Below the pieces are notes generated by a model that worked only from the letters and a program-made list of their open reading frames with translations, did not search any database and had not been told where the DNA came from. Positions 4,697 to 41,480 of a DNA stretch of 64,000 nucleotides are shown here, one piece after another (the stretch's first letter is position 1; each line of letters opens with the position of its first letter). The position numbers and the translations under genes are program-made. Source of the DNA: Infirmifilum sp. NZ (lineage in GTDB: Archaea > Thermoproteota > Thermoprotei > Thermofilales > Thermofilaceae); assembly GCF_022693705.1 (NCBI RefSeq), contig NZ_CP094288.1:325185-389184 (forward strand). The letters run 5' to 3'.

Positions 4697-4729
4697 TAAA
4701 TTTAAGTTTCCCTAGGGGGTTTTTCGGGT

Positions 4730-17580: not shown

Positions 17581-17604
17581 CCCAACCCCTTGAGTTAAAC
17601 GTTA

Positions 17605-17840
17605 TTTTCAACAGTGAAAAAATCTGAAGTATTTAAGGTTTTCTCTGGGAAGACTGGGGTGGAACATAACCCTGTTATCTTATTAATCAAGTTTCATTAA
17701 CGTCGCGAACATTTAAAATACAGGGAGGGTTAGAAATCACAACCGCGGGAAAAGTCACCCTGCAAAAACGCGTGTTCGCACGGGAACAAGGAACAGGCTA
17801 AAAAGGAACATTTAAATACCCCCTCCCACATGGTTTAACG
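17605..17840 (+). promoter_or_regulatory. CRISPR leader 2
   Basis: This 236-bp leader is the inverted counterpart of leader 1. It begins with the palindrome TTTTCA-ACAG-TGAAAA (17605-17620), contains the conserved TTATTAATCAAG, AAAACGCGTGTTCGC and AAAAAGGAACA blocks, and has TATA-like ATTTAAATA at 17810-17818, about 22 nt before the first repeat. It ends TTTAACG against the repeat. Confidence 0.92.
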
Positions 17841-20800: not shown

Positions 20801-21573
20801 TCGAGCAGAAGTCAAGAGACAATTGAAAGACTGGTATTGCTGTTCTACGTCATCGCGCCCGTCGCGTACCTAGGCAGAAGTCAAGAGACAATTGAAAGGC
20901 GTGCGCTTGAAGCGGAAAGTCATCGTTTTCTTGTCGTACGCAGAAGTCAAGAGACAATTGAAAGTTGAGTTCATTAACGTGCTTGAGAGTTACCTTTCAA
21001 GCCTTGAGCAGAAGTCAAGAGACAATTGAAAGTCGTAATAGCTGGCGACGTGGATGTCCGCGCTCCCGTGCCCGACGAGCAGAAGTCAAGAGACAATTGA
21101 AAGGCAAATGTTTCCCTTACAGTCAAAAACGGTAATTTCTGAACGAAAGCAGAAGTCAAGAGACAATTGAAAGAGCCTCTTCGACAAAAGCTTGACGGCG
21201 TCCCAAGTAACCGCAGAAGTCAAGAGACAATTGAAAGGCGCGGTGACGGTGTTCACCTGAACGGCGTTCTCGTAGTAGCAGAAGTCAAGAGACAATTGAA
21301 AGCCCTTCAGCCCCCTCACCACGTCAACCTCGCTTTGCGAGCAGAAGTCAAGAGACAATTGAAAGATCGTCAAAAGAATGCGGAAATCCCCGCTCTTCAA
21401 AGCAGAAGTCAAGAGACAATTGAAAGCCTTGGAAGTAGGCGATGAACTGGCCCGGCTTCAGCTTGATGGAAGAAGTCAAGAGACAATTGAGAGTCCTACG
21501 AAGTATCCCCTCTTCGCACCGCGCGCGGCACCCGCATGCGTGTATGCTGAAAAAAGTCAAGAGACAATGAAGG
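17841..21573 (+). CRISPR. CRISPR array 2: 56 repeats, 55 spacers, read rightward
   Basis: Repeats of 25 nt begin GCAGAAGTC and end AATTGAAAG. I count 56 copies from 17841 to the degenerate last copies. One copy (19450) starts ACAG. The last two, at 21469-21493 and about 21549-21573, are decayed (ending TTGAGAG and AATGAAGG) and carry the GAA form seen in array 1. This degeneration marks the leader-distal end. It is the longest array in the window. All frames in it that repeat EVKRQLK or RSQETIE are repeat translation, not genes. Confidence 0.97.
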
Positions 21574-24065: not shown

Positions 24066-25401
24066 CAGGAACCCGCCGACCGAGCTCGCGTTCGAGTTCG
24101 AGGTCACCGAGCCGGGCTCGGTCGCCACGGGGGACTTCATCGAGGTCCCCGTCGAGGGGGGCACGCTCCTAGCCAGGGTCGTGAGCGTCCAGGCGATCAA
24201 CGCGGCGCTCAGCGAGGTCGGGGTCGTCTCGGAGGCCAGCGAGTACGGCCTCAGGCTGCCAGCGTCCACCCTACTCGCCGCCTCCGAGGTGCAGGTCGCG
24301 AGGGCTAGGGCGCTCGAGGTAGTGACCGCTTCGGGCGAGCTGGTCCCGCCGATGCTCCCGCCCAGCCCTGGGACGCCGGTCTACCCGGCTTCGAGGGACT
24401 ACCTGATGAGGCTGCTCGGCCTCAGAGAGGGAGGGGTGAGGCTCGGGGAGCTCTGGCGCGTGGGCGTGGAGGCGCTCCTCGACGCGGACACGCTCGTCAG
24501 GCACCACGTGGCCGTAGTGGGGGCGACGGGCTCGGGGAAGTCGCACACCCTGGGCGTGCTGGCCGAGGAGCTGCTCGACCACGGCTACCCGGTCGTCGTG
24601 GTGGACGTGCACGGCGAGTACGGCTTCCTGGAGGGGGAGGGCTACAGGGTGAGGAGGGCGAGGATCACCGAGGTGCTCCTGAAGCCCGGCCTCCTGAGCC
24701 CCGACGCCGTGGCGGAGGCCACGGAGATGACCGAGGTACAGCGGGACCTCCTGCACCTCGCCTACGAGGAGAGCGACGGCGTCGAGCTGAGCGACATCAT
24801 ATCCAGCGTCGAGAGCACCGCCGAGAGGTACGGGTTCAGGAGGGAGACGGTGATAGGGGTCGTGAGGAGGCTCAGGACGCTGAAGGCTATGGGCATCTTC
24901 ACCGGGGGCGGCGGGGCAGGGCCACCAGAGGAGCTCGTGGAGGAGGGCAGGGCCACAATCCTCGACGCCGGGCTCGGGCTCCCGGACAGGGCTACTGGGG
25001 CGCTCGTGGGCTCCATCGCCTGGGCGCTCTTCGAGCTGAGGAGGACCAACGATGTGCCCGGCTTCGCCCTTATCGTCGACGAGGCGCAGAGGTTCCTCCC
25101 GCAGGACGAGGACGTCTTCTCGAAGAGGGCGCTACGCGTCATGGCCAGGGAGGGGAGGAAGTTCGGGGTGGGGCTGATGGTAGCGAGCCAGCGCGTGGTG
25201 GGCCTCGACAAGGACGTGCTCAGCCAGTGCGGGACCAAGATCGTCCTGAGGATGGACAGCGCCACCGACCTCGCCATGCTGAAGCCTCTCCTCGGCTCCA
25301 GCCTGCGCCTCGTCCCGCACCTGCCCCGCGGCATCGCCCTGGTCGCCGGAGTAGCGGTCAGGTACCCTGTGCTCGTCAAGGTGAGGCCTAGGAAAGGCTA
25401 G
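24040..25401 (+). CDS. HerA-like hexameric ATPase/DNA translocase
   Basis: This 453-residue protein has an N-terminal HAS-barrel-like beta domain (to about 100). The FtsK/HerA ATPase follows, with Walker A GATGSGKSHT (161-170), DVHGEYGFL after it, Walker B ALIVDEAQRFLPQ (about 345-357), GREGRKFGVGLMVASQR sensor and C-terminal PHLPRGIALVAG. HerA pumps DNA into NurA. The GTG start overlaps the NurA-like gene, so the two are translationally coupled. The stop overlaps the end of the convergent cas4 by 4 bp. Confidence 0.9.
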   Translation: MEKLGVVISRNPPTELAFEFEVTEPGSVATGDFIEVPVEGGTLLARVVSVQAINAALSEVGVVSEASEYGLRLPASTLLAASEVQVARARALEVVTASGELVPPMLPPSPGTPVYPASRDYLMRLLGLREGGVRLGELWRVGVEALLDADTLVRHHVAVVGATGSGKSHTLGVLAEELLDHGYPVVVVDVHGEYGFLEGEGYRVRRARITEVLLKPGLLSPDAVAEATEMTEVQRDLLHLAYEESDGVELSDIISSVESTAERYGFRRETVIGVVRRLRTLKAMGIFTGGGGAGPPEELVEEGRATILDAGLGLPDRATGALVGSIAWALFELRRTNDVPGFALIVDEAQRFLPQDEDVFSKRALRVMAREGRKFGVGLMVASQRVVGLDKDVLSQCGTKIVLRMDSATDLAMLKPLLGSSLRLVPHLPRGIALVAGVAVRYPVLVKVRPRKG

Positions 25402-25985
25402 CCCAGCTGCCTGCAGACGCGCCTGTAGTAGCAGTAGCCGCACTTCCAGCTAGCCTGCCTCGGGGGCGGCTTAGGGGCCTCGAGGTCGCGCCTCATCCGC
25501 TGGGCGAGGGAGGCCACGTAGCTCCTGAGGGAGGGCGTCACCCGCACTTCCACCCACCTGCCCGAGCCCACGATCAGGACGGAGTCCGCCGTGGCCCTGA
25601 GGGTCTCCTCCGCCAGGAGGGCGTACGCTACGCCCTGGGCTAGGACGTGGCGAAGCCTGCCGTAGAGCGAGCGCCGGGAGACGTCGCTCAGAGCCTTGAC
25701 CTCCACAACCCTGACGAGGCTGCCGCGCCTCAGCACCGCGTCCGCGTAGCCGTGGAGCCCCAGCCTCCTGCTCCTCACGTAGAGGTTCCTCAGGAGCTCC
25801 CAGCCCGCGGGCGGCCTCAGCTCCGGAAGCCCCGCCTCCCCCGCGGCCCTCATGGAGGGGGTGACGTAGTCCCCGCCGAGCCTGAGCTGGAGGTACGCGT
25901 ACCTAGGGCAGTAGGCGTACTCCTTGAGGAGGGCGACGGGGAGCAGACCCGCCTCCTCCAGGCTATACGACGACACGCGCCTCAC
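25398..25985 (-). CDS. cas4: Cas4 adaptation nuclease
   Basis: This 195-residue RecB-like nuclease has an N-terminal YAYCPRYAYLQL (first Fe-S Cys), a nuclease core GYADAVLRRGSLVRVVEVKAL with the D and EVK residues, and a C-terminal CGYCYYRRVC cluster giving the other three Cys of a 4Fe-4S site. Cas4 trims pre-spacers and selects PAM. It is the last gene of csa1-cas1-cas2-cas4; its start overlaps cas2 by 23 bp. Confidence 0.93.
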   Translation of the reverse strand: MRRVSSYSLEEAGLLPVALLKEYAYCPRYAYLQLRLGGDYVTPSMRAAGEAGLPELRPPAGWELLRNLYVRSRRLGLHGYADAVLRRGSLVRVVEVKALSDVSRRSLYGRLRHVLAQGVAYALLAEETLRATADSVLIVGSGRWVEVRVTPSLRSYVASLAQRMRRDLEAPKPPPRQASWKCGYCYYRRVCRQLG

Positions 25986-26244
25986 CCCCGAGCGGGGCCA
26001 TGGGCCTCCCGGCTACCAGCGCGCGCTCGAGGCTCTCGTCGGGGACGACCAGCACGATGACGCTGTCGCCCTCCTGGGTGACGTGCCTCTGCGCCACCCT
26101 GTAGACGTCCTTCGCGAACGCGTAGCCGCCCCTGCCCACGAAGACGCTCCGCTGGACCCGGGTGAGGGACAGCCCGAGCAGGCGCGAGGAGAGCCTCAGC
26201 CTGTCGGCGTCGTCGCTTATGTCGTACACGACCACGACCCTCAT
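25963..26244 (-). CDS. cas2: Cas2 adaptation protein
   Basis: This 93-residue ferredoxin-like protein starts MRVVVVYDISDD, with the conserved Asp after the first strand, and continues LTRVQRSVFVGRG, a typical Cas2 segment. Cas2 dimers bridge Cas1 dimers for spacer integration. It overlaps cas1 by 4 bp and cas4 by 23 bp. Confidence 0.94.
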   Translation of the reverse strand: MRVVVVYDISDDADRLRLSSRLLGLSLTRVQRSVFVGRGGYAFAKDVYRVAQRHVTQEGDSVIVLVVPDESLERALVAGRPMAPLGGEARVVV

Positions 26245-27203
26245 CCCATCCTCGCCCTGAAGCCCACGTACTCCTCAAGCTCGCCCCTGAGGTAGCTGGC
26301 GAGCTCGGACGCCTTCCTGACGATGATGTCGTCCAGCGTCGCCCTCCCCGCTCTGTAGGGGAACTCCCTCCCCAGCGCATCCAGGACTGCTGCAGCCACC
26401 CTCCTCCTCGAGTCCCTGTCCAAGATCCCGTTCGAGGCCGTGAGCACGAGCCGGGCGAAGATCAGGGCCTTGTCGACGACCGGCCTGAACTGCTCGATAA
26501 AGTCGTAGACCAGGGTCCTCTGCCCGCTCTTCATCGCGTGCATGAAGCCCGCGTAGGGGTCGAGGCCGACGAGGAGGAGCGCCCTCTCGCACCTCGCGTA
26601 GAGTATCCCGTAGCCGTAGTTGAGCGCCATGTTGAACACGTCGAGCCCCTGCGGGTCCCTGCCCGTGAAGCCGTAGCTCTCGGGGAGCAGCTTCGCGACA
26701 GCCCCCCAGTACACCCTCGCGGCCTGGGCCTCGAGCTCCCTGATCTCCGCGGCGTCCGGCCTCGCGCGCCTGATCTCGTCCGCCAGGGCCTCAACCCTCT
26801 CAGCCTCAATCGCGAAGTAGTCGTCACGCCTCGACTTCGCCGCGTACCTCAAGATGCCCGCCTGGTTGCGCACCTTCGCCTCCACGATGCTCTTCGCCGC
26901 CTTAAGGCCCCGCCCGTCCACGATCGCCCTGTACTGCGCCACCCTCGTCGCGGCGGTCTTGTTGATCGTCGGCGGGTAAACGCGGGCCACCGGGTGCCCG
27001 TGGGCCCCGAGGAGCGTGACGTCGACCCCGTGGGCCGCGAGGGCCTGCAGGGCTGCGGAGGTGATGCTCGCCGCCCTCGTCGCGATCACCACCGAGTCGT
27101 AGACCGCCGGGGAGAGCTCCACAGCCTCGCCGTCGCTAGTCCGCAGCACCACCCTGCCCCTCTCCACCCTCACCCTGCACGGCTTAGACACGAAGAGCAG
27201 CAT
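26241..27203 (-). CDS. cas1: Cas1 integrase
   Basis: This protein has 320 residues from the ATG at 27203, which begins the canonical MLLFVSKP strand; upstream codons are open to 27272 but lack family likeness. It has an N-terminal beta domain (ELSPAVYDSVVIATRA, ALAAHGVDVTLL), then the helical catalytic domain with DVFNMALNYGYGILYARCERAL, LDPYAGFMHAM and LVYDFIEQFRPVVDK, containing the Glu, His and Asp metal ligands. The start lies inside the 3' end of csa1 (20-bp overlap). Confidence 0.95.
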   Translation of the reverse strand: MLLFVSKPCRVRVERGRVVLRTSDGEAVELSPAVYDSVVIATRAASITSAALQALAAHGVDVTLLGAHGHPVARVYPPTINKTAATRVAQYRAIVDGRGLKAAKSIVEAKVRNQAGILRYAAKSRRDDYFAIEAERVEALADEIRRARPDAAEIRELEAQAARVYWGAVAKLLPESYGFTGRDPQGLDVFNMALNYGYGILYARCERALLLVGLDPYAGFMHAMKSGQRTLVYDFIEQFRPVVDKALIFARLVLTASNGILDRDSRRRVAAAVLDALGREFPYRAGRATLDDIIVRKASELASYLRGELEEYVGFRARMG

Positions 27204-27975
27204 GGCACACCGCCCTCCAGGGGCACCACTCCGGGCAGTCGTCCGCCACCCCAGGGTCCTCGCGCGACTCAACGACCCGCGCCACGTAGTCCCTAGCCTC
27301 GAGGAAGCGGCCCCTCACCGAGTCGTCGAGGACGACGGTCCTCCAAGTTATCCTCCCGCCCGCGAACTGCGCCACCACCCCGTAGTTCACGGGGTTGCTC
27401 GTCAGCGCCTCTACCGCGAGCGCGTAGGCGGTCACCGCCAGCTCCTTGCGCTCCAGCCCGTTCCCCGTGACGAAGTCCACTGGCACGCCGCCCACCAGCA
27501 GGTCGGGCCTAACCGTGTCCGAGAGCCCCACCAGGCTACCCGGCAGCTCCGGCTCGACCGCCACAGGTAGCCTGGCGCCGCCCACGCCCCACGCGCTAGC
27601 CAGGGCGAAGGCCTCGTCGAAGACCCTCGACGCGGCCGCCCTTAGGTCCCTCGGAGCCCCCCTCAGCAGCCTAGCCTTAGCCCTCGACGCCTCCTCCACG
27701 CTCACCCGGCCCCTCAGCGCCAGCCTGAACGGCTCGAGGAAAGCCTCGTGCAGGAGCCTCCCCACCTGCAGCACCCCGTCGCCCTGAGGCCTCAGCCCCC
27801 TGACCCTCCTCAGGTACGCGTCGCGCTTCGTCGGGCAAGGCGAGGAAACCTCGCTCACAGTCGGCATGAAGCCGTGCCTCGCCCCCACCTGCTCGAGCCT
27901 CCAGCCCCTCAGCTCCACCACGAGGTCACCGGCCACGACGCCCCTCACCTTACCCCAGACAGTCCACGGGAACAT
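27184..27975 (-). CDS. csa1: Csa1, Cas4-family adaptation protein
   Basis: This 263-residue protein has the Csa1 signature SPCPTKRDAYLRRV (about 45-58), a PD-(D/E)XK-like core (VRPDLLVGGVPVDFVTG, with LERKELAVTAYALAVE) and a C-terminal Cys cluster CPEWCPWRAVC for an Fe-S site. In crenarchaea csa1 heads the csa1-cas1-cas2-cas4 adaptation operon, as here. The core EVK is degenerate (DFVTG), so nuclease activity may be lost. The promoter lies in the 116 bp between csa1 and leader 3. Confidence 0.9.
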   Translation of the reverse strand: MFPWTVWGKVRGVVAGDLVVELRGWRLEQVGARHGFMPTVSEVSSPCPTKRDAYLRRVRGLRPQGDGVLQVGRLLHEAFLEPFRLALRGRVSVEEASRAKARLLRGAPRDLRAAASRVFDEAFALASAWGVGGARLPVAVEPELPGSLVGLSDTVRPDLLVGGVPVDFVTGNGLERKELAVTAYALAVEALTSNPVNYGVVAQFAGGRITWRTVVLDDSVRGRFLEARDYVARVVESREDPGVADDCPEWCPWRAVCHAALRV

Positions 27976-28000: not shown

Positions 28001-28103
28001 AAACGGTACAAATAAATCTAACCCACGAGAGCATAAAGAGAGACACAAGCCAAGACCTTTTCGAAACATTTTGCAAAAGCACCAGCAGAACGTCTTAAGT
28101 TTA

Positions 28104-28338
28104 TTTTCAACAGTGAAAAATTTAGCTATATTTAAGGTTTTCTCTGGGAAGAGAATGCTGGAACATAACCGAGTTATCTTATTAATCAAGTTTCATTAGC
28201 GATGCGAACATTTAAAATAGAGGGAGGGTTAGGAATCACAACCACGGGAAGAGATAAGCCTGAAAACGCGTGTTCGCACGAGAACAAGGAACAGGCTAAA
28301 AAGGAACATTTAAATAGCCCCTCCCACAACGCTTAACG
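28104..28338 (+). promoter_or_regulatory. CRISPR leader 3
   Basis: This 235-bp leader runs from the palindrome TTTTCA-ACAG-TGAAAA (28104-28119) through TTATTAATCAAG, AAAACGCGTGTTCGC and AAAAAGGAACA blocks to TATA-like ATTTAAATA at 28308-28316 and TTAACG against the first repeat. It is closely similar to leader 2 across its whole length and lies divergently from csa1. Confidence 0.92.
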
Positions 28339-30893
28339 GCAGAAGTCAAGAGACAATTGAAAGTTAAACATACCGTTATACTACGACCCCGAGACGCGCA
28401 AATTCCGCAGCAGAAGTCAAGAGACAATTGAAAGGTGATCGCCTACGACGCCGTGCGGGACCGAGTCCTTGCCCGCAGAAGTCAAGAGACAATTGAAAGT
28501 CCGCGTCCGCTAGGCTGGCCTGGCCCTGCAGGTAGGCGTCGCAGAAGTCAAGAGACAATTGAAAGCATCAACCCCGTAATCAGCTTCTCAGCCTCACTGT
28601 CACGTGCGCAGAAGTCAAGAGACAATTGAAAGGCGTTGTCCTTCGGCACCGTGCAGAAGGGACAGCGCGCGCAGAAGTCAAGAGACAATTGAAAGTTCTG
28701 AGCCCGCTTCGGGGGGCGGGCGATGAGAGAGGGCAGAAGTCAAGAGACAATTGAAAGTCACGCCTAATCTCCTCAAGCTTCTTTCTCACATCATCAGGCA
28801 GCAGAAGTCAAGAGACAATTGAAAGTAATGCTACTCAGCTCTCGGTTAAGGACTATCTGAAGAAATACGCAGAAGTCAAGAGACAATTGAAAGCGGATAC
28901 ACGGTTGACGTGGACTCGGCTCTCGGCAAGATCCGCAGAAGTCAAGAGACAATTGAAAGATCGGCTATCGCATTTATCTCCTGCTGGGAGTAGCCCATCT
29001 GCCTCAGCAGAAGTCAAGAGACAATTGAAAGTCAGTTGCGGTTATGCATGCGAGCGAGGATGTCCGAGCAGAAGTCAAGAGACAATTGAAAGTGCCATCT
29101 CCTGGGCTGTTTTCCTGCTGCTCAGCAGGAGGCTCCTGAGCAGAAGTCAAGAGACAATTGAAAGAAGAGCGGCATAGCGGAGGCGGGCGGCGCGAGGGTG
29201 CTCGCGCGCAGAAGTCAAGAGACAATTGAAAGACTCGTCATCTAGACACCCTCTTGAACTGGTAGACCCGGCAGAAGTCAAGAGACAATTGAAAGTCTAA
29301 GCAGAGGGGTAACGAGGTTGTGATCGCGACCAAGGATCTGCAGAAGTCAAGAGACAATTGAAAGCAGTACTTCTTCTTCCACTCCACCAGCTGGCGAACC
29401 TGCAGAAGTCAAGAGACAATTGAAAGTTACCCTTCCAGGCGAGCACCACGGGTATCACGCGGTTCATGACGTGCAGAAGTCAAGAGACAATTGAAAGGGC
29501 TCTCGAAGCGCGTCCTCGAGGTATGGGTTGACTCGCAGAAGTCAAGAGACAATTGAAAGTCGCCTACAGTTGTCCAGTTGTACCTAGGCAACAGCTCCCG
29601 CAGAAGTCAAGAGACAATTGAAAGAATGTGCAAACAGACCCCTCAACTGCCACGCGTGTTGTACGCAGAAGTCAAGAGACAATTGAAAGACTATAAAACA
29701 CAATTCCTTTTTTTACCCATCTTTTCTCAGGTGAGGCAGAAGTCAAGAGACAATTGAAAGCCTTCTACTTCCTTCTACTACTACTTCCATAGGAAGACCT
29801 CGAAAGCAGAAGTCAAGAGACAATTGAAAGACCGCTTTGAATCACAACGATTTTGTAAACATAACTTATAGGCAGAAGTCAAGAGACAATTGAAAGATAG
29901 AATAGATGGGCCTTCTCCCCTGCGAGTCTATCCCTACGGGCAGAAGTCAAGAGACAATTGAAAGGCCAAGGTTGCGGGCACCTAGAATGACCCGCAACTG
30001 GATCCAGCAGAAGTCAAGAGACAATTGAAAGCTCAAGAAGCGTGAGAGCCAACTTGAGCTGCTCTAGGAGAGCAGAAGTCAAGAGACAATTGAAAGCTGC
30101 TCAGGCCCAACACCGCGGTGAACATCAAAGTCACGGCAGAAGTCAAGAGACAATTGAAAGTAGGCGATGTATAGGTAGGTCAGCGCGGCTACGGCGGCTG
30201 CCGCGCAGAAGTCAAGAGACAATTGAAAGACGGAGCTATCCATATCCACATGGTGCTCTTCGGTGTGAGGAGGAAGTCAAGAGACAATTGAAAGTCTTAT
30301 GAAATCCGATCGGTTCACGTAAATGCCGGCCTCGGAGGAAGTCAAGAGACAATTGAAAGTGGGTTGTCTCCCTGAGTGGCAAAATGACAAAGCTCTGCGA
30401 GGAAGTCAAGAGACAATTGAAAGCTACGACTGGGACAACACCTCCGCCATCGTCGCGCTGGGAGGAAGTCAAGAGACAATTGAAAGGGGTCAATCTCCTC
30501 TAGGGGAGCTATTCGTGAGAGAAGGAAAAGAGGAAGTCAAGAGAGAATTGAAAGGACAGCCGTGTTACTCTGGGTGCTTGAGAACGTGGGGCAGAGGAAG
30601 TCAAGAGACAATTGAAAGGATCCCTAGTTCTTACGCGCCGAGACGTTTTATATGTTTATTTGAGGAAGTCAAGAGACAATTGAAAGAACTCCCTGTTGAA
30701 AGCGAAGCCGCTGGGGTGACGGTGGATGGGTGAAGAAGTCAAGAGACAATTGAAAGAAGCTCGCTGAGGTTCCACATGACGTTGTAGACGGTCTCGAAGA
30801 AGTCAAGAGACAATTGAAAGTGTCGGATAGGGAGAGCTTGCCGTGCTCGGAAAGCAGCTTTCAATTGTGAAGAAGTCAAGAGACAATTGAAAA
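28339..30893 (+). CRISPR. CRISPR array 3: 39 repeats, 38 spacers, read rightward
   Basis: The first 29 repeats have the GCAGAAGTC form. From 30270 seven repeats (30270, 30335, 30399, 30462, 30530, 30594, 30662) begin GAGGAAGTC, and the last three (30732, 30796, 30869) begin GAAGAAGTC as in array 1. The copy at 30530 has a G for C (GAGAGAATT), and the last copy ends TTGAAAA. Spacers 17-20 (29427-29664) are identical to spacers 2-5 of array 4. Confidence 0.97.
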
Positions 30894-30895
30894 GC
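30857..30895. repeat. Inverted repeat formed by the last repeat of array 3
   Basis: The end of the final spacer reads GCTTTCAATTG (30857-30867), an inverted copy of the repeat's 3' end; the last repeat supplies CAATTGAAAAGC (30884-30895). The two arms can pair as a hairpin with a 16-nt loop and one bulge. It may stop transcription or be a scar of inverted-repeat recombination. Confidence 0.6.
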
Positions 30896-30959
30896 AGGAC
30901 GACACGGCTGGGGTGCGATAGAGATATGTTTTTCGCCCCCGATTCTTCTTCGAGGTAGT

Positions 30960-31583
30960 GTGGGCAGGCTGTTTGTCGTAACGCTGGGTTTTGACGAGAA
31001 GTTCGCTGTGCGTGCTCTGATGAGGAGGGGGGTTGGTAGGGATGACGCGGTAGTGGTCTTTCTTCCACGCGAGGAGTCTAGGGACGAGAGGGCGGCGAGG
31101 GCGCTGGAGGCGCTGAGGGGTATCGTCGAGGGCCTAGTTCAGGGCGGGTTGAGGGAGGTAGAGCTGAACGTTGGGGACTTCGTCTCCGCGGTGGCGGCTG
31201 TCAGGTCGACGGTCCGCGAGTACGGTGCCTCCGAGGTCTACGGGAGCCTGAGCGGGGGGATGAGGGCGCTCGTGGTGGAGGTCCTGCTGGGGCTCATGAT
31301 GCTCGAGGGGGTCAGGGTCTTCGTCGACGTTGACCTCGAGTCGCTGAGGGGCTACGTCTCGATACCGCTACACGTCTTCAAGGCGCCGAGGAGGGATAGG
31401 TGGATTTCCATCCTCAGGGCGCTGGAGGAGGCGGGGGGTGTGAGGGGCGTCTCGGCGGTAACGGGCTACTCGCCGGCCACGGTGAGCAGGGAGATTAAGC
31501 AGATGAAAGCCCTGGGACTCGTGGACGAGGAGCTCAGGTTGACCGAGGCCGGTAGGCTCTACCTGCGAATACACTCCGCTTGA
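30960..31583 (+). CDS. csa3: Csa3, CARF plus winged-helix CRISPR regulator
   Basis: This 207-residue protein starts with the Csa3 opening GRLFVVTLGFDEKFAVRALMRRG, then the CARF ligand loop VYGSLSGGMRALVVEVLLG (about 92-110), and a C-terminal winged helix (SAVTGYSPATVSREIKQMKALGLV, about 160-185). Csa3 regulates adaptation genes and arrays in Sulfolobales, with cyclic oligoadenylate sensing by the CARF part. It sits just after array 3 and before the type I-A genes. The GTG start follows a short AT-rich stretch. Confidence 0.92.
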   Translation: MGRLFVVTLGFDEKFAVRALMRRGVGRDDAVVVFLPREESRDERAARALEALRGIVEGLVQGGLREVELNVGDFVSAVAAVRSTVREYGASEVYGSLSGGMRALVVEVLLGLMMLEGVRVFVDVDLESLRGYVSIPLHVFKAPRRDRWISILRALEEAGGVRGVSAVTGYSPATVSREIKQMKALGLVDEELRLTEAGRLYLRIHSA

Positions 31584-31775
31584 TGTTTCACGATTCAGGA
31601 AAGCCTGGTCTCAAGGCTCGCTTCTTCGTCTCGACTTCCTCAAAAATCCTGCCTCTCAGCGGCTACCTGCGTTTCATCTATCTGGAACATTCTCAGTCTT
31701 ATTTCACTAAGATTGAACACTCTATGAAACAAAAAGCTTATTAACGGCCTTGCAGCCTTATTGAGTGGTGAAAGC

Positions 31776-32147
31776 ATGGGCTCGAAATGGGTTGATGTGA
31801 AAGAGTTCGAGGGGATAGTCAAGATGCTGCGCTTCTTCGCGGCCATCCGGAACTACAGCTTCGTCGACCGCGTCGGCAACGCCCTTAACCCCGAGACCGT
31901 CGAGGTCGCTATCAGGGACGCGCTGAGGACTTTCACCTCGATCTACGACTCCGCCGCGTCCGACGAGAAGGGTTTCCGCTACTTCGAGCTCGAGGAGGCC
32001 GGAGCTAAGAGGAAGGTCTACCTGCCTGCGAAGCCGCGCGAGGATGAGGTCGCGAGCTTCGTGAGGGCGGTCTGGGAGGATGTGGGCGTTGCTAGGCGCG
32101 TGGCGATCATGGCTATGAGCGTCCCGGCGAGGGAGGCTGAGGGGTGA
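31776..32147 (+). CDS. csa5: Csa5, type I-A small subunit
   Basis: This helical protein has 123 residues from ATG 31776 (a TTG at 31761 is also in frame). It contains FEGIVKMLRFFAAIRNYSFVDRVGNALNPE and FVRAVWEDVGVARRVAIMAM segments typical of Csa5, the Cas11-like small subunit of type I-A Cascade. TATA-like CTTATTAA lies about 30 nt upstream. It is the first gene of the interference operon and overlaps cas7 by 4 bp. Confidence 0.85.
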   Translation: MGSKWVDVKEFEGIVKMLRFFAAIRNYSFVDRVGNALNPETVEVAIRDALRTFTSIYDSAASDEKGFRYFELEEAGAKRKVYLPAKPREDEVASFVRAVWEDVGVARRVAIMAMSVPAREAEG

Positions 32148-33145
32148 TGGGCGTGCTGTCGTTCCTGAGCCTTGGGGTTAGGTTCGAGGCGAACGTCGAG
32201 GCCCTGAACATGGTTGAGGTCAGCGGCAACTACGCGAGGCACAGGAGGGTACCCTACATCATCACCGAGGGCGGGAAGCCCAAGGTAGTGTACGTGCCGG
32301 CAGTCAGCGGGGAGAGCCTGGCGCACGCGTACCAGGAGCTGCTCGCCGAGGAGGCTAAGTCGCTCAACCTGCCTGTGTGCTCGTACTGCTCAGCCGGGGA
32401 GTTCCTCAAGTCGATGGACGAGGAGCACGCGAGCGAGAAGTTCGGTGGCAAGGTCCCGAAGCTCAGCCAGAGGGCGAAGAAGGAGGAGCTGATCAGGGTC
32501 GTGAACGAGATAGAGGCTGGGATCGTGAGGGGGTGCGTGGTCGAGGACGTAGGGGGGTTCCTCTACGCGGAGAAGCCCCCGGTGAAGAGGACGTCGAGGT
32601 TCGCCGTGAGCTACGCGCTCCCCATCAAGTCGATGGCGACCTACGCGACGCTGGAGCCCCAGCTCCACGCGCGCCACGCTAGGACCACTGGGGAGAGGAG
32701 GGAGGGGGCGGCCGAGCAGATGATATACTACGTGGAGAGCGGCACGGCGATCTACGCGTTCACCTTCAACCTCGACCTGGCCGGGATCGGAGTGAGCAGC
32801 TACTCCGGGGCGCAGCTCGTCGAGGACGTGGGCAAGAGGCGGCTGGCCGCCGTCAGGGCCCTGTACAGGATGCTGTCTTCCCAGGGCTTCGGCGCGAAGC
32901 TCTCGCGCTTCTTTCCAGTGGGCGGGATAGTCTCGCTGGTCGCGACGCTCACTGAGAGGCCTTTCACGGTCACCTCGCCCATATACGACGACTTCGCCAC
33001 CTCGACGAGGCAGAGGCTCGAGAGGGTGAAAGCCACCTTCGGCGAGAAGGCCCTCTACTTCGAGATGGGGGCCGAGGGCTACAGGACCCCTGAGGACGTG
33101 CTGAGCGCCGTGATCGAGGCCCTCAAGCAGGAGGGCACGGTGTAG
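32144..33145 (+). CDS. cas7: Cas7 (Csa2), type I-A backbone
   Basis: This 333-residue DevR/Csa2-type Cas7 has FLSLGVRFEANVEALNMVE at the N-terminus, YIIT and PAVSGESLAHAYQELLAEEA, a mid CSYCSAGEF insertion, RTSRFAVSYALPIKS, and SGTAIYAFTFNLDLAGIG near 205. Six or more copies coat the crRNA in type I Cascade. Its start overlaps csa5 by 4 bp; a 12-bp gap precedes cas5. Confidence 0.93.
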   Translation: MMGVLSFLSLGVRFEANVEALNMVEVSGNYARHRRVPYIITEGGKPKVVYVPAVSGESLAHAYQELLAEEAKSLNLPVCSYCSAGEFLKSMDEEHASEKFGGKVPKLSQRAKKEELIRVVNEIEAGIVRGCVVEDVGGFLYAEKPPVKRTSRFAVSYALPIKSMATYATLEPQLHARHARTTGERREGAAEQMIYYVESGTAIYAFTFNLDLAGIGVSSYSGAQLVEDVGKRRLAAVRALYRMLSSQGFGAKLSRFFPVGGIVSLVATLTERPFTVTSPIYDDFATSTRQRLERVKATFGEKALYFEMGAEGYRTPEDVLSAVIEALKQEGTV

Positions 33146-33157
33146 GGTGCGTGCGCA

Positions 33158-33892
33158 TTGGGCGCGGCTTTTTCTCTACGCTACGTCCTAGCCGTTCTGA
33201 GGCCGCACGGCGTGGTGTCCCTGAGGGTTCAGCCGCAGAGCAAGGCCCGCGTCAGCCTGAAGCACCCACCCCCAAGCTCCCTGCTTGGCGCCCTCTCCTA
33301 TTCCCTCGCCCGGGAAGACGGAAGGGAGGTCGTGTTCAGGGACGGGCACGTCGAGCCGAGGAGCGCCGAGTTCAGGGACTTAATCGAGCACGTAGCTGTG
33401 GCCGTCTCGGGTGAGGGCTACTCCTACGGCTCCCTCTACAAGATAAACGAGTACTACCGCGGGGAGGCCCTTCAGGCCGTGACGGCCCTCATGAACACCT
33501 TCCTCTACGGGGAGGGCGACTTCGCCATAAAAGCCCTGTTCGTTCTCAGCGGGAGGTGCGACGGGGACTGCGCCAGGCTCGTCGAGAGGGCAGCGTGGGG
33601 GATCTCGAGGCTCGGCTCGAGGGAGTCGCTGGTGAGCGTGGAGCGCGTCTCCTCTGGTGTAGGCAGGGTGCTCGCGGTCGACGAGGTGGAGACGGAGTAC
33701 TCCTTCGAGTGGAGGGAGGGGGTTAGCCTGGAGGGCTCCTACGACGTGGTCTTCACAGCCGACTGGCGCTCGGTGCTGGGCAATATAGCCTCCGCGCCGA
33801 GAATTAGGGTCGTCTACCCCAGAGGCAGGGTCAGGGTGAGGGGTAAAGGCATGAAGGTCTTCCAGTTCGACGAGGGGGTGGTTGTCCTTTGA
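33158..33892 (+). CDS. cas5: Cas5a, type I-A Cascade subunit
   Basis: This 244-residue RAMP has HGVVSLRVQPQSKARVSLKHPPPSSLLGALSYSLA, the N-terminal strand and helix of Cas5a, with a C-terminal strand RIRVVYPRGRVRVRGKGMKVFQFDEGVVVL. It should hold the crRNA 5' handle. TTG or GTG starts are possible just after cas7; its stop overlaps cas8a by 4 bp. Confidence 0.88.
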   Translation: MGAAFSLRYVLAVLRPHGVVSLRVQPQSKARVSLKHPPPSSLLGALSYSLAREDGREVVFRDGHVEPRSAEFRDLIEHVAVAVSGEGYSYGSLYKINEYYRGEALQAVTALMNTFLYGEGDFAIKALFVLSGRCDGDCARLVERAAWGISRLGSRESLVSVERVSSGVGRVLAVDEVETEYSFEWREGVSLEGSYDVVFTADWRSVLGNIASAPRIRVVYPRGRVRVRGKGMKVFQFDEGVVVL

Positions 33893-35088
33893 GCGCGCCT
33901 GTACTCACCTCGGGGCTACTCACGGAGGTCATGGCCCAGGGGCTTGCGTACATCTACTTGCAGGGCCTCGTCGACGCCCAGCTCGAGGAGAAGGAGGTGA
34001 ATGAGCGGGTTGCCGACGTTCTTGAGAGAAAGGCCGAGGAGCTGAGTGGGGAAGATATCACCAGTAGCGCAGTGACGGGCCACTTCAAGGATCACTACTT
34101 CTCGCCGGATGATGGCGTCCTCGTGAAGTGGTACGGGGGCGGCGAGCAGCCAACTGAGTACGCGAGGCTCATGCTGTACGTCATGGAGGGGACGGCCAGG
34201 CTCCTCCGCCAGGACCAGGTCTCCTTCCTCAGAAGCCTAGGGAGCGTGGAGGGGTTAAGCTTCGGGGAGCCCTTCAGGGGGAAGCTGGCGATAGTCCCCG
34301 CTATCTTGAAGCAGGCCGAGTTCTACGAGAAGCAGACGGTGTTTATGAGCCCCACAAGCGGTCCAGAGGCTGACCTCCTCGTGGACCCGGTGTGGTTTGC
34401 CATTCTGGCGCTGGGCTTCATGCTGGGGTTTGGCGGCTACTACGACGGGGCTTACCACGTGTTCACGAAGCCCGGGCTGCCCCTCACCCTTGAGGGCCTG
34501 AGCTCGCTGCACACGCCCACTCTCTCCAGGATGCTGGAGGGCTTGGAGCTAGTGTCGAAGCTGAGCAGGGATGTGAGGCCGTCGCCGGCATCCGAAGAGG
34601 TGTTCTCCATCCAGATGGCGATGGGTGTGGCTGAGAGCGGCCGGTCCGTTAGCCCTGAGGCCTTCCCGCTTAACCTCTACGTTGTGGAGTTCGTGGCGAA
34701 CACGTACACCGTGACCAGGAGCCTGAGCGTGGACCTGGAGCCTCTCGTGGCCTACCTCAACTCGTACCTGGGCGAGCTCAGGAAGCTTACACTCGAAGTG
34801 GTTCGCGAAGAGCCCCTTGAGCCGCTAAAGGTGATCGTGAGGCATGCCGTCGAAGACCTCACGGGTAGGGGGGTTTCCGGGGAGCCCGTGTTCTACCTCT
34901 TCGTGAAGGACTTCTACCGCGCCGTAGTCTCGAGGAACGCGGCGCTGCTGGAGGACGCGCTCCTCAGGTTCCTGAGGAGGCTAGACGTTGCGATCCGCAA
35001 CAGAGAGCTACGGGCGGAGGCCGCTCAGAGGCTCATGGCGTTCAGGAGCGAGCAGAACGTGCAGGCCATGCTCAAGGCGATCGCGTAG
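33889..35088 (+). CDS. cas8a: Cas8a-type large subunit of type I-A Cascade
   Basis: This 399-residue protein lies in the cas8a position between cas5 and cas3'. Segments such as VLTSGLLTEVMAQGLAYIY and FPLNLYVVEFVANTYTV agree with the Csa4/Cas8a2 group, which is poorly conserved. No Cys cluster is visible. It should recognise PAM. Identity is mainly from operon position and length. Confidence 0.8.
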   Translation: MSAPVLTSGLLTEVMAQGLAYIYLQGLVDAQLEEKEVNERVADVLERKAEELSGEDITSSAVTGHFKDHYFSPDDGVLVKWYGGGEQPTEYARLMLYVMEGTARLLRQDQVSFLRSLGSVEGLSFGEPFRGKLAIVPAILKQAEFYEKQTVFMSPTSGPEADLLVDPVWFAILALGFMLGFGGYYDGAYHVFTKPGLPLTLEGLSSLHTPTLSRMLEGLELVSKLSRDVRPSPASEEVFSIQMAMGVAESGRSVSPEAFPLNLYVVEFVANTYTVTRSLSVDLEPLVAYLNSYLGELRKLTLEVVREEPLEPLKVIVRHAVEDLTGRGVSGEPVFYLFVKDFYRAVVSRNAALLEDALLRFLRRLDVAIRNRELRAEAAQRLMAFRSEQNVQAMLKAIA

Positions 35089-36692
35089 TGGCCCCGATGC
35101 CCGGCGGCAACATCCTGATTGACGCCTACAGAGCCGTGGAAAGTAAGGTGAGCAGGGAGGGGGACGTTAGGCGCCCGCTGCTCGAGCAGTTCTTCGAGCA
35201 CGCGGGCGAGGTGCTCGAGGGGGGCCGCAGTTTCCTAGCCGTTGTGAACGCGCCCACGGGTTACGGGAAGACCACGCTGAGCCTCGCCTCAGCCCTCGCG
35301 GCGGCCACGCGCGCCAGGTACTTCTCAAAGGTCGTGCACGTCCTGCCCTTGAGGTCCATCGTGGAGGACGTTGCCGGTAAGGCCGCCAGGGTTCTGGGCG
35401 GGGAGGCCGTCGGCGTTAAGATGATGGGTGTGAGCTGGGAGGTCTTCCACGCCTTCCCCCTCAACGTGACGACTGTGGATACATTCACCTTCGACCTCCT
35501 GAGGCTGAACACGAAGAAGCTGCAGCGGGTGAGGATGGGGGAGGAGTTCGGGTACGACTTCCTCACCCAGGCCAGCCTCTTGAACTCGCTGGTGGTGCTG
35601 GACGAGGCCCACTACGCGCTCGAGGAGGAGTACATGAGGGACGCGTTCTACATGGTCCTCGACTTCCTCCTCCGCGTGGGCGTCCCGGTGGTGGTGATGA
35701 CCGCCACGCTCTCCAAAGGCTACGAGGAGCTCCTCCGCAAGCTTGCACGGGAAAGCGAGGTAGAGTTCCTCAAGTGTGAGCCGCTGACTGGAGACCCATT
35801 CGTGGAGAGCGAGAGCGGGAAGTCGATCCGCCTGGGCTTCGCCCCCACCGCCGAGGCCCTCGAGAAGGCCCTCGGCTACAGGAGAGTCCTGGTCGTGGCG
35901 AACAACCCCGCGAGGGCTACGTGCATCTACGAGAGGCTTCGCGGCTCGCGGAGGAACGTGCTGCTACTCCACGGGCGGATGAAGCCCTTCCACAAGAGGG
36001 AGGTTTTGGAGGGGGTTCGCGAGCTTGAGGAGCTGGGCGAGCCGCTCGTTCTCGTGGCTACGCAGGTCGTCGAGGCCGGGGTCGACGCTAGCTTCGACGT
36101 CTTGGTCACGGACCCAGCGCCGGCGTACAGCCTGATACAGAGGATGGGGAGGGTCGCCAGGAGGCCTGGTGATCGCGAGGGAGCAGTGCTCGTGGCCGAA
36201 GACGGCCCCTACTCGCCGTACGAGGAGGTGAAGGTCTCCAAGACGCTACGCTGGCTGAGGGAGAGGGGCGGGGGGTTCAAGCCCAGAGTCCCCTCGACCT
36301 ACGCGGAGCTTCTAGCGGAGGTTCACGGGAAGCGCGCGACCGAGGTGCTTCCGAGCGCATTCAGGCTGAGCCAAGTCATGGCCAAGCTGTACGATCCCAT
36401 GAGTAGGAGCCTTGAGGTGCTGGAAGCCATTGAGAAGCTTATGAAGCGGGAGCCTTTCCTCAGGGAGTTCAGCCTCCCCGTAGACGTTGACGGTGAAGTG
36501 ATCCTCCTGCGCCCCATAGAGGCTTACAGGATGTACCAGCGCGGCCTCCTGGAGGTCGAGGGCGCCACGGGAAGCGTCGACCCTGGCTACTTCTACAGCC
36601 TAGCGAAGCGCATGGCCTTAGGGGGTAGCGTCGAGATCCGCTTCACCGGTACCTACGACCCCGGGAGGGGTCTAGCCGAGTGCACCGAGTAG
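35088..36692 (+). CDS. cas3: Cas3' DExH helicase (type I-A)
   Basis: This 534-residue SF2 helicase has Walker A APTGYGKTTLSLA (about 55-67), motif II DEAH, motif III VVMTATLSK, and motif VI QRMGRVARRPGDREG. It has no HD domain, which is encoded by the next gene, as in type I-A. It unwinds DNA bound by Cascade. The GTG start overlaps the cas8a stop. Confidence 0.94.
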   Translation: MAPMPGGNILIDAYRAVESKVSREGDVRRPLLEQFFEHAGEVLEGGRSFLAVVNAPTGYGKTTLSLASALAAATRARYFSKVVHVLPLRSIVEDVAGKAARVLGGEAVGVKMMGVSWEVFHAFPLNVTTVDTFTFDLLRLNTKKLQRVRMGEEFGYDFLTQASLLNSLVVLDEAHYALEEEYMRDAFYMVLDFLLRVGVPVVVMTATLSKGYEELLRKLARESEVEFLKCEPLTGDPFVESESGKSIRLGFAPTAEALEKALGYRRVLVVANNPARATCIYERLRGSRRNVLLLHGRMKPFHKREVLEGVRELEELGEPLVLVATQVVEAGVDASFDVLVTDPAPAYSLIQRMGRVARRPGDREGAVLVAEDGPYSPYEEVKVSKTLRWLRERGGGFKPRVPSTYAELLAEVHGKRATEVLPSAFRLSQVMAKLYDPMSRSLEVLEAIEKLMKREPFLREFSLPVDVDGEVILLRPIEAYRMYQRGLLEVEGATGSVDPGYFYSLAKRMALGGSVEIRFTGTYDPGRGLAECTE

Positions 36693-36697
36693 GGGGT

Positions 36698-37429
36698 GTG
36701 AGAGGCTTGAGCTGCGCGGCGTTCTTCTCTGAGGGCAAAGTGGCGCAGACTATGCGCGAGCACGTTGAGCAGGGTCTCGATTACATCAGGCGGGTGTTCC
36801 TCGAGCGCGGCTACGCCGACTACGTGCACATGATAGCTCTCAGGGCTCGGCTCAGCGCGAGCGCGGAGCAGGCAGAGCAGGCTCTTCTCACCGCCTACAC
36901 CCTGCACGACGCGGGCAAGCTACTCTTGGAGTTCCAGGACGCGCGGGGAGGCTTCCAGGGGCACGAGTTCGCCTCAGCCGCCCTGATCCTAAAGTCCTGC
37001 GAATCCCTCGGGGGGCTGCAAGAGGCCGCGGCTCTCGCCGTCCTCCTTCACCACCACACGATGCCGCGCAAGCCCCGTGCTCTACTCCAGAACCGCAGCG
37101 GCCTGAGGTTCGCAGAGGAGTGCATAGCCGAGCTTGAGGAGCTCCTGGAGAGGAGGGCCGGCCTCCCCGTGCGGCTGGCGCGGGCGCTGAGCGTGCGCGA
37201 GGTAGAGGAGGTTAGGAGCCTTCTAGACCTCAAAGCGGGGGACTGGCCCAGGCTGAGGCTGGTGTTCGCCCTCCTGGAGCCGCTCATGCTGGCCGACAAC
37301 TACGCCTCCAGGTCCCGGGGCGGCGAGCCCACGCTCCTCGGCAACGAAGCCGAGAAGCTGAAGGTGGCGCTCGAGAAAATTCGACTGAGCTTCCGGGAAG
37401 GGGTGTATAGGGCAGGCGAAAGTAGGTAA
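36698..37429 (+). CDS. cas3'': Cas3'' HD nuclease (type I-A)
   Basis: This HD-family nuclease has TLHDAGKLLLEF (HD pair), GHEFASAALI and LLHHHTMPRKP, which supply the metal-binding His and Asp residues. It cuts ssDNA exposed by Cas3'. A GTG at 36698 starts 5 nt after the helicase stop; a longer frame from 36680 would overlap it by 13 bp. It is the last gene of the operon. Confidence 0.92.
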   Translation: MRGLSCAAFFSEGKVAQTMREHVEQGLDYIRRVFLERGYADYVHMIALRARLSASAEQAEQALLTAYTLHDAGKLLLEFQDARGGFQGHEFASAALILKSCESLGGLQEAAALAVLLHHHTMPRKPRALLQNRSGLRFAEECIAELEELLERRAGLPVRLARALSVREVEEVRSLLDLKAGDWPRLRLVFALLEPLMLADNYASRSRGGEPTLLGNEAEKLKVALEKIRLSFREGVYRAGESR

Positions 37430-38024
37430 TAACATATTTTTGTATTTAGTGAACAGTGGCGTTTCTTCCCGGGGACTTTCGCCGCGCTGGCCTTACGATA
37501 GGCTGGTGACCTTGAGTCCAGCTGGGGGAATAAGGGCGAGCCGCGGCCCCGCCTCAGGCCCTTCATCCCCGCTCGGGCCCACACCGCATCGGGGCTCTGC
37601 GGCCGCAAACCCTCAAAATCAAAGCGCGATGCAGGTACTTAAGCTCTTCCCCTAAGCCCTCTAGAAATCCGGTTCTCGCCTCGCTTGAGGCCTAATGCCT
37701 TCGGCGAGGCTTCGGTGCGCTTCGACCAGCCTCGTCTCCTCAAGGTAGCCCCTGGATCTAACTGCGGCGCCCCGCACGCCCCTCGAAATGGACACCTTTG
37801 AGGATTTCCCATCCCCCAGCCTTCCCCAGGCTACCGAAGAGCTCCCGTGCCGGTTGCAAGGCATCGCCTTCACGCGGCGCCAAGAGAGGTGCTGGGTGCT
37901 GCGCGGGAGTCCTTGCCCCATCCCTGAGGAGACTTCCAAGAGAGCCTGGATTCTTAGGCGCGCCTGGCTGACCCCAGCCACCTTGGGGCCATCCGCTCCA
38001 GCGGCCCGCGTATCCACGCGCCCG
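37430..38024. other. Gene-poor GC-rich stretch
   Basis: About 600 bp hold no recognisable gene. A leftward frame of 129 codons (37661-38050) is Arg/Ser-rich and matches no family I know; it overlaps the end of the membrane-protein gene. It may be a relic. No RNA gene or terminator was identified. Confidence 0.4.
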
Positions 38025-38291
38025 CTAAGGGCGCTTCGGCTCTCGGGCACCCTCCCGTTCCAGCGCCAGCAGTAGGATAGTTATGAGCACCGCTGTGATG
38101 AGGCCCGAGAGCACCGACGCGCGAAGCGGCGTTGGTTCAGTGTACTTGAAGAGGAGCGGAAGGACGCTCCCCAGCAGCACGGAGAGGGGGACCGCGATGG
38201 CGAGGTTGACCGCCAGGAGCACCGCGAGCCGCAGCAGCGCTCCCCGCACGCGCGGAGCCGCCCGGGTGCCTGGACCCAAGGCGCCCCCCAA
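38025..38291 (-). CDS. Small two-helix membrane protein, unknown
   Basis: This 88-residue protein has two hydrophobic segments, LLRLAVLLAVNLAIAVPLSVLL (about 20-41) and SVLSGLITAVLITILLLAL (about 60-78), and a basic C-terminus. A TATA-like TTATTTTATAG (about 38303-38313) lies at the right distance for a leaderless TTG or GTG start. It sits between the I-A operon and the old end of array 4. I do not recognise a family. Confidence 0.55.
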   Translation of the reverse strand: MGGALGPGTRAAPRVRGALLRLAVLLAVNLAIAVPLSVLLGSVLPLLFKYTEPTPLRASVLSGLITAVLITILLLALEREGAREPKRP

Positions 38292-38456
38292 CCAGCAGGC
38301 ACAACCCTATAAAATAAGTCTTCCGCCGAGGCTGGAGCCAGCATCAAAGGCCCAGGCACACGCAACCCCTCGATAGGAAAGCGTCCACGCTAGCCAACCG
38401 GGGGTGAAGCAGTACCTCTAACTCGCCCGGCCAGAACGCGCCCAGCCCCTCTCCGT

Positions 38457-40612
38457 CTTTCAATTGTCTCTTGACTTCTGCCGGACAAGAAGCGCTACAT
38501 CCTCGAGGCGTTCCTGGTCACGGAGCTTTCAATTGTCTCTTGACTTCTGCGAAACAAGGTTTCAACGCATAATTAAGACTATCGATACTGCAGTTACTTT
38601 CAATTGTCTCTTGACTTCTGCAAGCCTCTTCTTAGTCTCCTCGTCGAAATTCGACAACAGAACTTTCAATTGTCTCTTGACTTCTGCAAGGAAGAAGCTG
38701 AAGGAGGAAGAGGAGGTTTCGCTCACAGAGGTACCTTTCAATTGTCTCTTGACTTCTGCATTCGCGTAGAACTTCCACAGGAATGGGAAGTACCTCAGCT
38801 TTCAATTGTCTCTTGACTTCTGCGAACGATAAAGCTAGTGGGAACTGGGCGCTTGGAGTATCCCTCTTTCAATTGTCTCTTGACTTCTGCACGGGTATTG
38901 GAGAGAACCCTGCCCCGTGTGCAAGCTAGTCTTTCAATTGTCTCTTGACTTCTGCGAGGAGCTACGGTAGGGACGGGAAGAAGTACCGTAACATGCCTTT
39001 CAATTGTCTCTTGACTTCTGCATAGCCTAGACGGAGTCACACTGACCGGAGTTCCAGCGAGGGACTTTCAATTGTCTCTTGACTTCTGCCCACGCTCCCC
39101 TCGGAGGCCGAGGTCAGAATAGTGTCTGCTTTCAATTGTCTCTTGACTTCTGCGGAAGGCCCCGCAGCCTGTCTAGCATGGCAGCTTCCCGCTTTCAATT
39201 GTCTCTTGACTTCTGCGTGGTGATACATTGCTTGCCAGTCCTTTCCTCACCAGTTCACGACTTTCAATTGTCTCTTGACTTCTGCCTCGGTTTTCCTCGG
39301 CGAGGAGCTGGGGCTCGACGAGTGCGATGTCCTTTCAATTGTCTCTTGACTTCTGCTGACCGCTCATCGGGTCGTATACTACGCGCTCCTGCATCTTTCA
39401 ATTGTCTCTTGACTTCTGCGGAGACAGGTCCGGAGCCGGAAGGTTGGAGAGACAAGGTCTTTCAATTGTCTCTTGACTTCTGCTATGTTTTCGTGTTTAG
39501 AAGGGTAGATGGGAATGAGTAGCTTTCAATTGTCTCTTGACTTCTGCCTATGTCGGTGAGTTGCTTCCGCCCGTGCGCCACGTCGTACTTTCAATTGTCT
39601 CTTGACTTCTGCACAATGGGAGAGATTGTTACGGCAACAGCGGTGCCGGCTTTCAATTGTCTCTTGACTTCTGCCCAGCTTGATCCTAACAGTCCCCCAC
39701 CCAGCGTTTTTGGCGAACTTTCAATTGTCTCTTGACTTCTGCTTGTGTCCAAGCTCTCTTTCCCTCACCTGCTTTAGCGCCTGCAACTTTCAATTGTCTC
39801 TTGACTTCTGCTCTTGGCTGCCGGTTGCGCGAGCGAGGGCACCTGGATGCTCTTTCAATTGTCTCTTGACTTCTGCTAGAACCCTGTAGAGCCTACGCAA
39901 CTGCATGTCCAAGTCGAAGATGATCTTTCAATTGTCTCTTGACTTCTGCGTATGCCGCTGTGGTGGTTGCGCTGTACCATGCTGTGCCTCGCTTTCAATT
40001 GTCTCTTGACTTCTGCCTCACCGTTTTCGGGGTCTGGAAGGGTCGCGGCCTCCCTTTCCTTTCAATTGTCACTTGACTTCTGCCCTGCTTGTAGTTGGGT
40101 GGCAGGTAGGGGGACACGCCTTCCTTTCAATTGTCTCTTGACTTCTGCTGGTCGTACCATCCCGCGCTTGAGGCCGCGCCGCAGGAGCTTTCAATTGTCT
40201 CTTGACTTCTGCAGTATTGTATCAATCGTGGATAGGAACTGCTGTTCTTGCGGAGTGCTTTCAATTGTCTCTTGACTTCTGCGTACAACACGCGTGGCAG
40301 TTGAGGGGTCTGTTTGCACATTCTTTCAATTGTCTCTTGACTTCTGCGGGAGCTGTTGCCTAGGTACAACTGGACAACTGTAGGCGACTTTCAATTGTCT
40401 CTTGACTTCTGCGAGTCAACCCATACCTCGAGGACGCGCTTCGAGAGCCCTTTCAATTGTCTCTTGACTTCTGCACGTCATGAACCGCGTGATACCCGTG
40501 GTGCTCGCCTGGAAGGGTAACTTTCAATTGTCTCTTGACTTCTGCTGGTGGTATGAATCGGGTGAGAGACAGGTGCCGTATTACCCACTTTCAATTGTCT
40601 CTTGACTTCTGC
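38457..40612 (-). CRISPR. CRISPR array 4: 33 repeats, 32 spacers, read leftward
   Basis: On the plus strand the 25-nt repeat reads CTTTCAATTG...CTTCTGC, so in transcription direction it begins GCAGAAGTC and ends AATTGAAAG. All 33 copies have the GCA form; the copy at 40059 has an A for T (GTCACTTG). The leader is on the right. Spacers 2-5 from the leader (40283-40520) duplicate spacers 17-20 of array 3 in the same order. Confidence 0.97.
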
Positions 40613-40847
40613 CGTTAAACGGTGTGGGAGGGGGTATTTAAGTGTTCCTTTTCGACCTGCTCCCTGCTCCCTTGCGAACACGCGTTTTACAGCATGCCTC
40701 TTCCCGTGGTTGTGACTTCGAACCCTCCCTCTATTTTAAAAGTTCGCAATATTAATGAAATTTGAAATATAAAATAACTGGGTTATGTTCCAGCCTAACC
40801 CTCCCAGAGAAAACCTTAAATATAGCTAATCTTTTCACTGCTGAAAA
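40613..40847 (-). promoter_or_regulatory. CRISPR leader 4
   Basis: This 235-bp leader has the same blocks as the other three: CGTTAA at the repeat, TATA-like TATTTAAG at 40635-40642, AACACGCGTTTT, CCCTCCCTCTATTTTAAAAG and the distal palindrome TTTTCA-N4-TGAAAA (40832-40847). It differs most in the central block (TTTGAAATATAAAATAAC instead of TTGATTAATAAGATAAC). Confidence 0.9.
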
Positions 40848-41480
40848 TAACGTTTAAAGGGGCTCTCAACATACTTTAGGTGATTTTAGCGCGCCGGCTA
40901 TGGCGTCGAGGAGCTCGCTGGGCTACCATCCCGTGCGAGAACAAGGAGTCACTAGAAGCGTTTTTCTCGAACCCGTGGAAGCCTCGGATAAAGCAGTGGG
41001 CTCGCCGAGTCAATACTCTTCCACAGCCTAGGCACGCTTAAGTCTAAGCGTCCCTTTTTAGAGCACTTCCTCTGATGGAGGCCAGTGCGCTGTTCGCAAC
41101 GGCGCCCGGGGCGACTTCTAGACGGGTTGGGGGCTCGTCTGCCGATAAGCTGGTCCGGTTCAGGGCTCAGGAGCCCGGGGTAGGCTAACGAGTGGGAGCA
41201 TGGGGATCTGAGGAGAGGCTTTCCGCTCGTGTGGTTTAGGGATACGTTCCCCTGCCCGGTGCTTTTCTGCTTGAAGGGGGCTCTAAGCGCAGAGTCTGCC
41301 GCTGAGGAGAGGTTCAAGGTAATGGACGGTAGGGTCTACCTTGAGGGCTAGCTTCCGCAACGTGCTCCAATGTATATGGATTAGGAGAGGGGAGTTGCGC
41401 ATCTAGACGTTTTAATGCCACTCCTGCCCTCAGCGTAAACTTTTATTCGAGCCAAGCTCCCTAAAAGTAGATGAATCGAT
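40848..41480. other. Non-coding stretch with possible decayed gene
   Basis: About 630 bp have no intact frame. Plus-strand fragments such as KESLEAFFSNPWKPRIKQW (frame at about 40945-41005) and FKVMDGRVYLEG ending at a stop at 41348-41350 look protein-like but sit in different frames, so this may be a broken gene. The family is not recognised. A TATA-like element probably precedes the Mrr-like gene. Confidence 0.3.

Follow-up and report, generated by a model that had tools for sequence, protein, structure and literature searches.

How did one and the same run of four consecutive spacers come to stand in two CRISPR arrays of a single chromosome? The question is raised by a stretch of 64,000 nucleotides (the window, i.e., the whole stretch of DNA that was analysed), which contains four arrays of one repeat family, each flanked on one side by a conserved leader sequence (about 245 bp). 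Array 1 (2391-4460, minus strand) holds 31 spacers and array 2 (17841-21493, plus strand) 54 spacers. Array 3 (28339-30893, plus strand) is composed of 39 repeats and 38 spacers, and array 4 (38457-40612, minus strand) of 33 repeats and 32 spacers. Arrays 3 and 4 face inward; their leaders lie at 28101-28338 (plus strand) and 40613-40857 (minus strand), the former aligning with the other three leaders.

All spacers of the four arrays were aligned against each other, as the earlier note on this DNA had proposed. The only related pairs are the four that the note had reported, and spacer sharing in the window is thus confined to them. The array 3 spacers at 29427-29472, 29498-29534, 29560-29599 and 29625-29664 are exact reverse complements of the array 4 spacers at 40475-40520, 40413-40449, 40348-40387 and 40283-40322, with lengths of 46, 37, 40 and 40 nt, respectively. 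In local alignments of the 155 window spacers on both strands these pairs score 37-46, the next-best pair scores 13.5 and shuffled spacers reach up to 14; a chance origin of the shared block is out of the question. Including its five repeats the block comprises 288 bp per copy, at 29402-29689 (plus strand) in array 3 and 40258-40545 (minus strand) in array 4, and both copies are 100% identical. They form the longest inverted repeat of the window in a repeat scan (100% complementary), are placed 10.6 kb apart on either side of an operon, and are the only two sites at which the block occurs in the chromosome (1,829,130 bp, single contig).

When all repeats are parsed and counted from the leader, the block takes up positions 17-20 in array 3 and positions 2-5 in array 4, as claimed before. 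The leader-relative order is preserved in both copies, the polarity being set by the homologous leaders of arrays 1-4. The flanking spacers are unlike on either side and identity ends at the outer repeats. Already the first bases beyond the leader-side limit differ, as spacer 16 of array 3 ends in CCT and spacer 1 of array 4 in CCA, and so do those beyond the far limit, where spacer 21 of array 3 begins with ACT and spacer 6 of array 4 with CAC.

The operon between arrays 3 and 4 (30960-37429, plus strand) encodes Csa3, Csa5, Cas7, Cas5a, Cas8a2/Csx9, Cas3' and Cas3'' according to Pfam and NCBIfam, and the adaptation genes cas4, cas1 and csa1 are found upstream of leader 3 (25398-27975, minus strand). 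The type I-A markers Csa5, Cas7/Csa2, Cas5a, Cas8a2 and the split Cas3'/Cas3'' all score above the NCBIfam cut-off, with Cas8a2/Csx9 reaching 162.1 bits against a cut-off of 156.65 bits. The locus is therefore predicted to be a type I-A CRISPR-Cas system of Thermofilum, a heat-loving archaeon. A scan of the named genome collection for the repeat pattern of the window arrays matched only Thermofilum sp. NZ13, and a search of genome contigs for related loci based on Cas8a2 found no relative. In the congener G001, Cas1/Csa1, a leader, an array, Csa3 and the I-A operon are present in the same order and orientation as in the window. In addition, array 1 is adjoined by a type III effector operon (4730-12657, minus strand) with a Csx10-like protein, several Csx7-like RAMP proteins and a Cas10-like protein of 929 amino acids, several of which score under the family cut-offs.

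The shared block is most probably the product of copying between the arrays by recombination at the repeats, likely in the form of gene conversion, after a single acquisition. The earlier note had preferred recombination or gene conversion over separate acquisition, and this reading is supported: repeats form both borders of the shared segment, its spacers agree in order and length, and the block is 100% identical whereas leaders 3 and 4 share only 82-85% identity. This difference indicates that the arrays had been separate for a long time before the block spread. The block also ends in repeats that are identical between the arrays, matching what is expected for an exchange at repeats. The run of four spacers would have been acquired once, by either array 3 or array 4, and later transferred to the second array by homologous recombination, with the identical 25-bp repeats as the sites of exchange and the tract ending inside the bounding repeats. 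The transfer was probably non-reciprocal, either by gene conversion or by repair of a broken array on a template provided by its counterpart or by the sister chromosome, and the 10-kb region between the arrays would have kept its ancestral orientation. We infer both the copying event and its non-reciprocal form, for which gene conversion is the simplest account. A point against this mechanism is that a repeat of 25 bp is short for classical recombination of the RecA/RadA type. Recombination between short repeats is reported for S. acidocaldarius in work cited in PMC4390879.

A crossover that inverted the operon was also considered. As a net event it is rejected, since operon order and orientation in G001 are the same as in the window and there is no net inversion; a single inverting crossover was either absent or reversed.

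Duplication of an entire array is named as one source of multiple arrays with the same repeat (PMC12814883), and array 4 might have been copied from array 3, spacers together with leader, while the block was leader-proximal, with later gains and deletions leaving four common spacers. However, the leaders would then hardly be expected at 82-85% identity beside a 288-bp block without any difference, and the trailer ends of the two arrays are unrelated. Moreover, a leader closely related to leader 4 is present at an array of the same-species MAG NZ13 (97-100% identity across the proximal 120 bp), so that the leader-4 type predates the window strain. We regard such a duplication as very unlikely. 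Somewhat less improbable, but still unlikely, is that one of the arrays received the block from the DNA of another strain, with or without an earlier exchange in the cell. Exchange between cells would be in line with the mosaic leaders of the species, as leader 4 and an NZ13 leader are 97 and 100% identical in two proximal 60-bp stretches and then only 83 and 74%. It would also agree with a description of S. islandicus in which CRISPR alleles occur in recombinant combinations (PMC2946923). However, transfer into the same array alone does not create a copy in a second array, and recombination between non-orthologous arrays would still be required. No other strain carrying the block was found, nor was a strain with a single copy, which would represent the state before the exchange; in NZ13 none of the spacers occurs in the window.

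Since leaders and repeats are similar in all four arrays, one adaptation machinery could presumably feed all of them, and both arrays might have acquired the same four spacers independently and in the same order. This would demand four spacers in a row that agree in their ends as well as in their lengths, whereas independent captures in S. islandicus are mostly offset (37 of 41 pairs); a pair of identical neighbouring spacers was not taken there as independent (PMC2946923). A review argues likewise for repeated series of spacers (PMC8047081), and in one locus of our own survey (G322) only partial overlaps are seen, as expected for independent capture. The probability of independent acquisition is next to nil. 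An artefact of assembly or of a strain mixture is barely more credible: a repeat of 288 bp exceeds the length of short reads and a misjoin is possible in principle, but the two copies have four distinct flanks, which a single copy in a clone could not produce. In addition, the genome consists of one contig of 1.83 Mb with 99.9% completeness, and the segment between the copies matches G001 in order and orientation.

The earlier note had offered a conditional clock, in which array 3 has gained 16 spacers and array 4 only one since the transfer. This clock is not supported, as it presupposes that the block bordered the leader of array 3 as well as that of array 4 when it was transferred. Counted back from repeat 1, leaders 3 and 4 already differ at the 7th and the 10th base, indicating that the leader was not co-converted with the block. 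The repeat variants, the protospacer searches and the comparison with NZ13, which shares no spacer, gave no indication of the donor array. The repeats within and beside the block are all of the GCAG type and therefore do not polarise the transfer.

Protospacers were searched in several collections. No protospacer was found in phages for the spacers of arrays 3 and 4, in plasmids for array 3 spacers, in congeners for spacers 1-29 of array 3, or in viral contigs for exact 22-24-nt cores of the four shared spacers, all hits being short matches at chance level; these negatives are to be read against sequence data in which Thermofilum viruses are hardly sampled. Target-based dating or donor assignment is thus impossible.

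The frequency of such sharing was surveyed in csa1 gene neighbourhoods (about 40 kb each) from genomes of the same phylum, with arrays parsed by one purpose-written script. The survey covers 131 arrays with 6,383 spacers in 60 array-bearing regions of 50 genomes. At least two arrays with the same repeat are present in 41 loci, giving 92 pairs, which are not independent within a genome; one apparent pair (G335) was excluded as a single array detected twice. Identical spacers common to two arrays were found in these csa1 neighbourhoods at 4 of the 41 loci, namely the window, G328, G053 and G006. The closest parallel is G328 (L111-L112; array positions 13697 and 35886 in the joined stretch), where two inverted arrays of 84 and 62 spacers with 80% identical leaders share an interior block of four spacers (spacers 45-48 and 28-31). 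The position of this block deep in both arrays is consistent with a transfer from interior to interior. In G053 (L089-L090), two inverted arrays of 17 spacers each have identical spacers 4-9 (six spacers) and leaders that are identical over about 270 bp, followed by three private leader-side spacers per array. Here the exchanged tract probably covered the leader together with the adjoining part of the array, after which each array would have gained three spacers. With both leader and block identical, G053 has the appearance of a leader-anchored event, in contrast to arrays 3 and 4. Leader identity can thereby separate interior exchange (window and G328) from leader-anchored exchange (G053). 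In G006 a single spacer is identical between the arrays. Duplicate spacers inside one array are present in 22 of the 131 arrays.

All sharing pairs are inverted (4/56, against 0/36 direct pairs; Fisher p = 0.15, not significant, with pairs within a genome not independent). This bias is suggestive only, and we consider it doubtful that exchange of spacer blocks is channelled by array geometry. If it were, recombination between direct arrays would remove the intervening cas genes, whereas inverted arrays could convert each other safely and serve as mutual back-ups of the memory.

The process itself is already known from Sulfolobales. In Sulfolobus, spacer-repeat regions recombine via the repeats between different CRISPR loci of one cell (PMC4390879, section 4.4). 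The probable exchange in the window is of the same type, with a spacer-repeat segment common to two loci within a single crenarchaeal genome and likewise ascribed to recombination at repeats. The window is a further well-documented example, in the genus Thermofilum, with block, borders, leaders and operon orientation all recorded, and there is no difference in kind. In a survey of strains with multiple arrays, spacers overlap in 11.9% of the arrays with the same repeat (PMC12814883), and our rate of about one locus in ten is near this value. In both studies arrays with an identical consensus repeat partly overlap in their spacers; the overlap there is mainly discussed as array duplication, whereas the divergent leaders in the window argue for exchange of a block. 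Spacers can also be duplicated within one array by misalignment of repeats (SpacerPlacer, PMC11472070; reviewed in PMC8047081), and there too blocks bounded by repeats are duplicated without acquisition. However, the copies in the window are located in two arrays, one on each strand, at a distance of 10.6 kb, and slippage within one array is therefore no explanation.

Spacer order is accordingly not always a plain record of acquisition, as blocks can be imported from another array on the same chromosome. Imported blocks mislead dating by leader distance as well as tools that reconstruct array histories. In the window, four targets would be served by two sources of crRNA.

Some further features of the arrays were observed. 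Array 3 carries GCAG repeats at positions 1-29, GAGG repeats at 30-36 and GAAG repeats at 37-39, and is thus layered by repeat type, with GAAG (three) as the oldest, GAGG (seven) as the next and GCAG (29) as the youngest layer. The step from GAGG to GCAG changes two adjacent bases together, which is why the leader-side repeat of array 3 may have been replaced through recombination. The leaders are mosaic (4461-4720, 17581-17840, 28079-28338 and 40613-40872 of the window; 13760-14019 of L029 in NZ13), and those of arrays 1 and 3, for instance, reach 95% identity over one 60-bp stretch, compared with 81% beside repeat 1. This mosaicism fits ongoing recombination among the array heads of the species. 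Among the NZ13 arrays (L029 6140-6855 and 12489-13759; L030 10990-12893), two have mutually identical spacers 1-3, counted from the leader, and a third has identical spacers 11-12, reflecting either true tandem duplication or an effect of MAG assembly. Finally, a solitary leader, the fifth of this type, was detected about 1.1 Mb away (L031 9540-9870; G000:C1 about 1,489,540-1,489,870); it is accompanied by one degenerate repeat and perhaps by another, and is a putative remnant of a fifth array belonging to the same repeat family.
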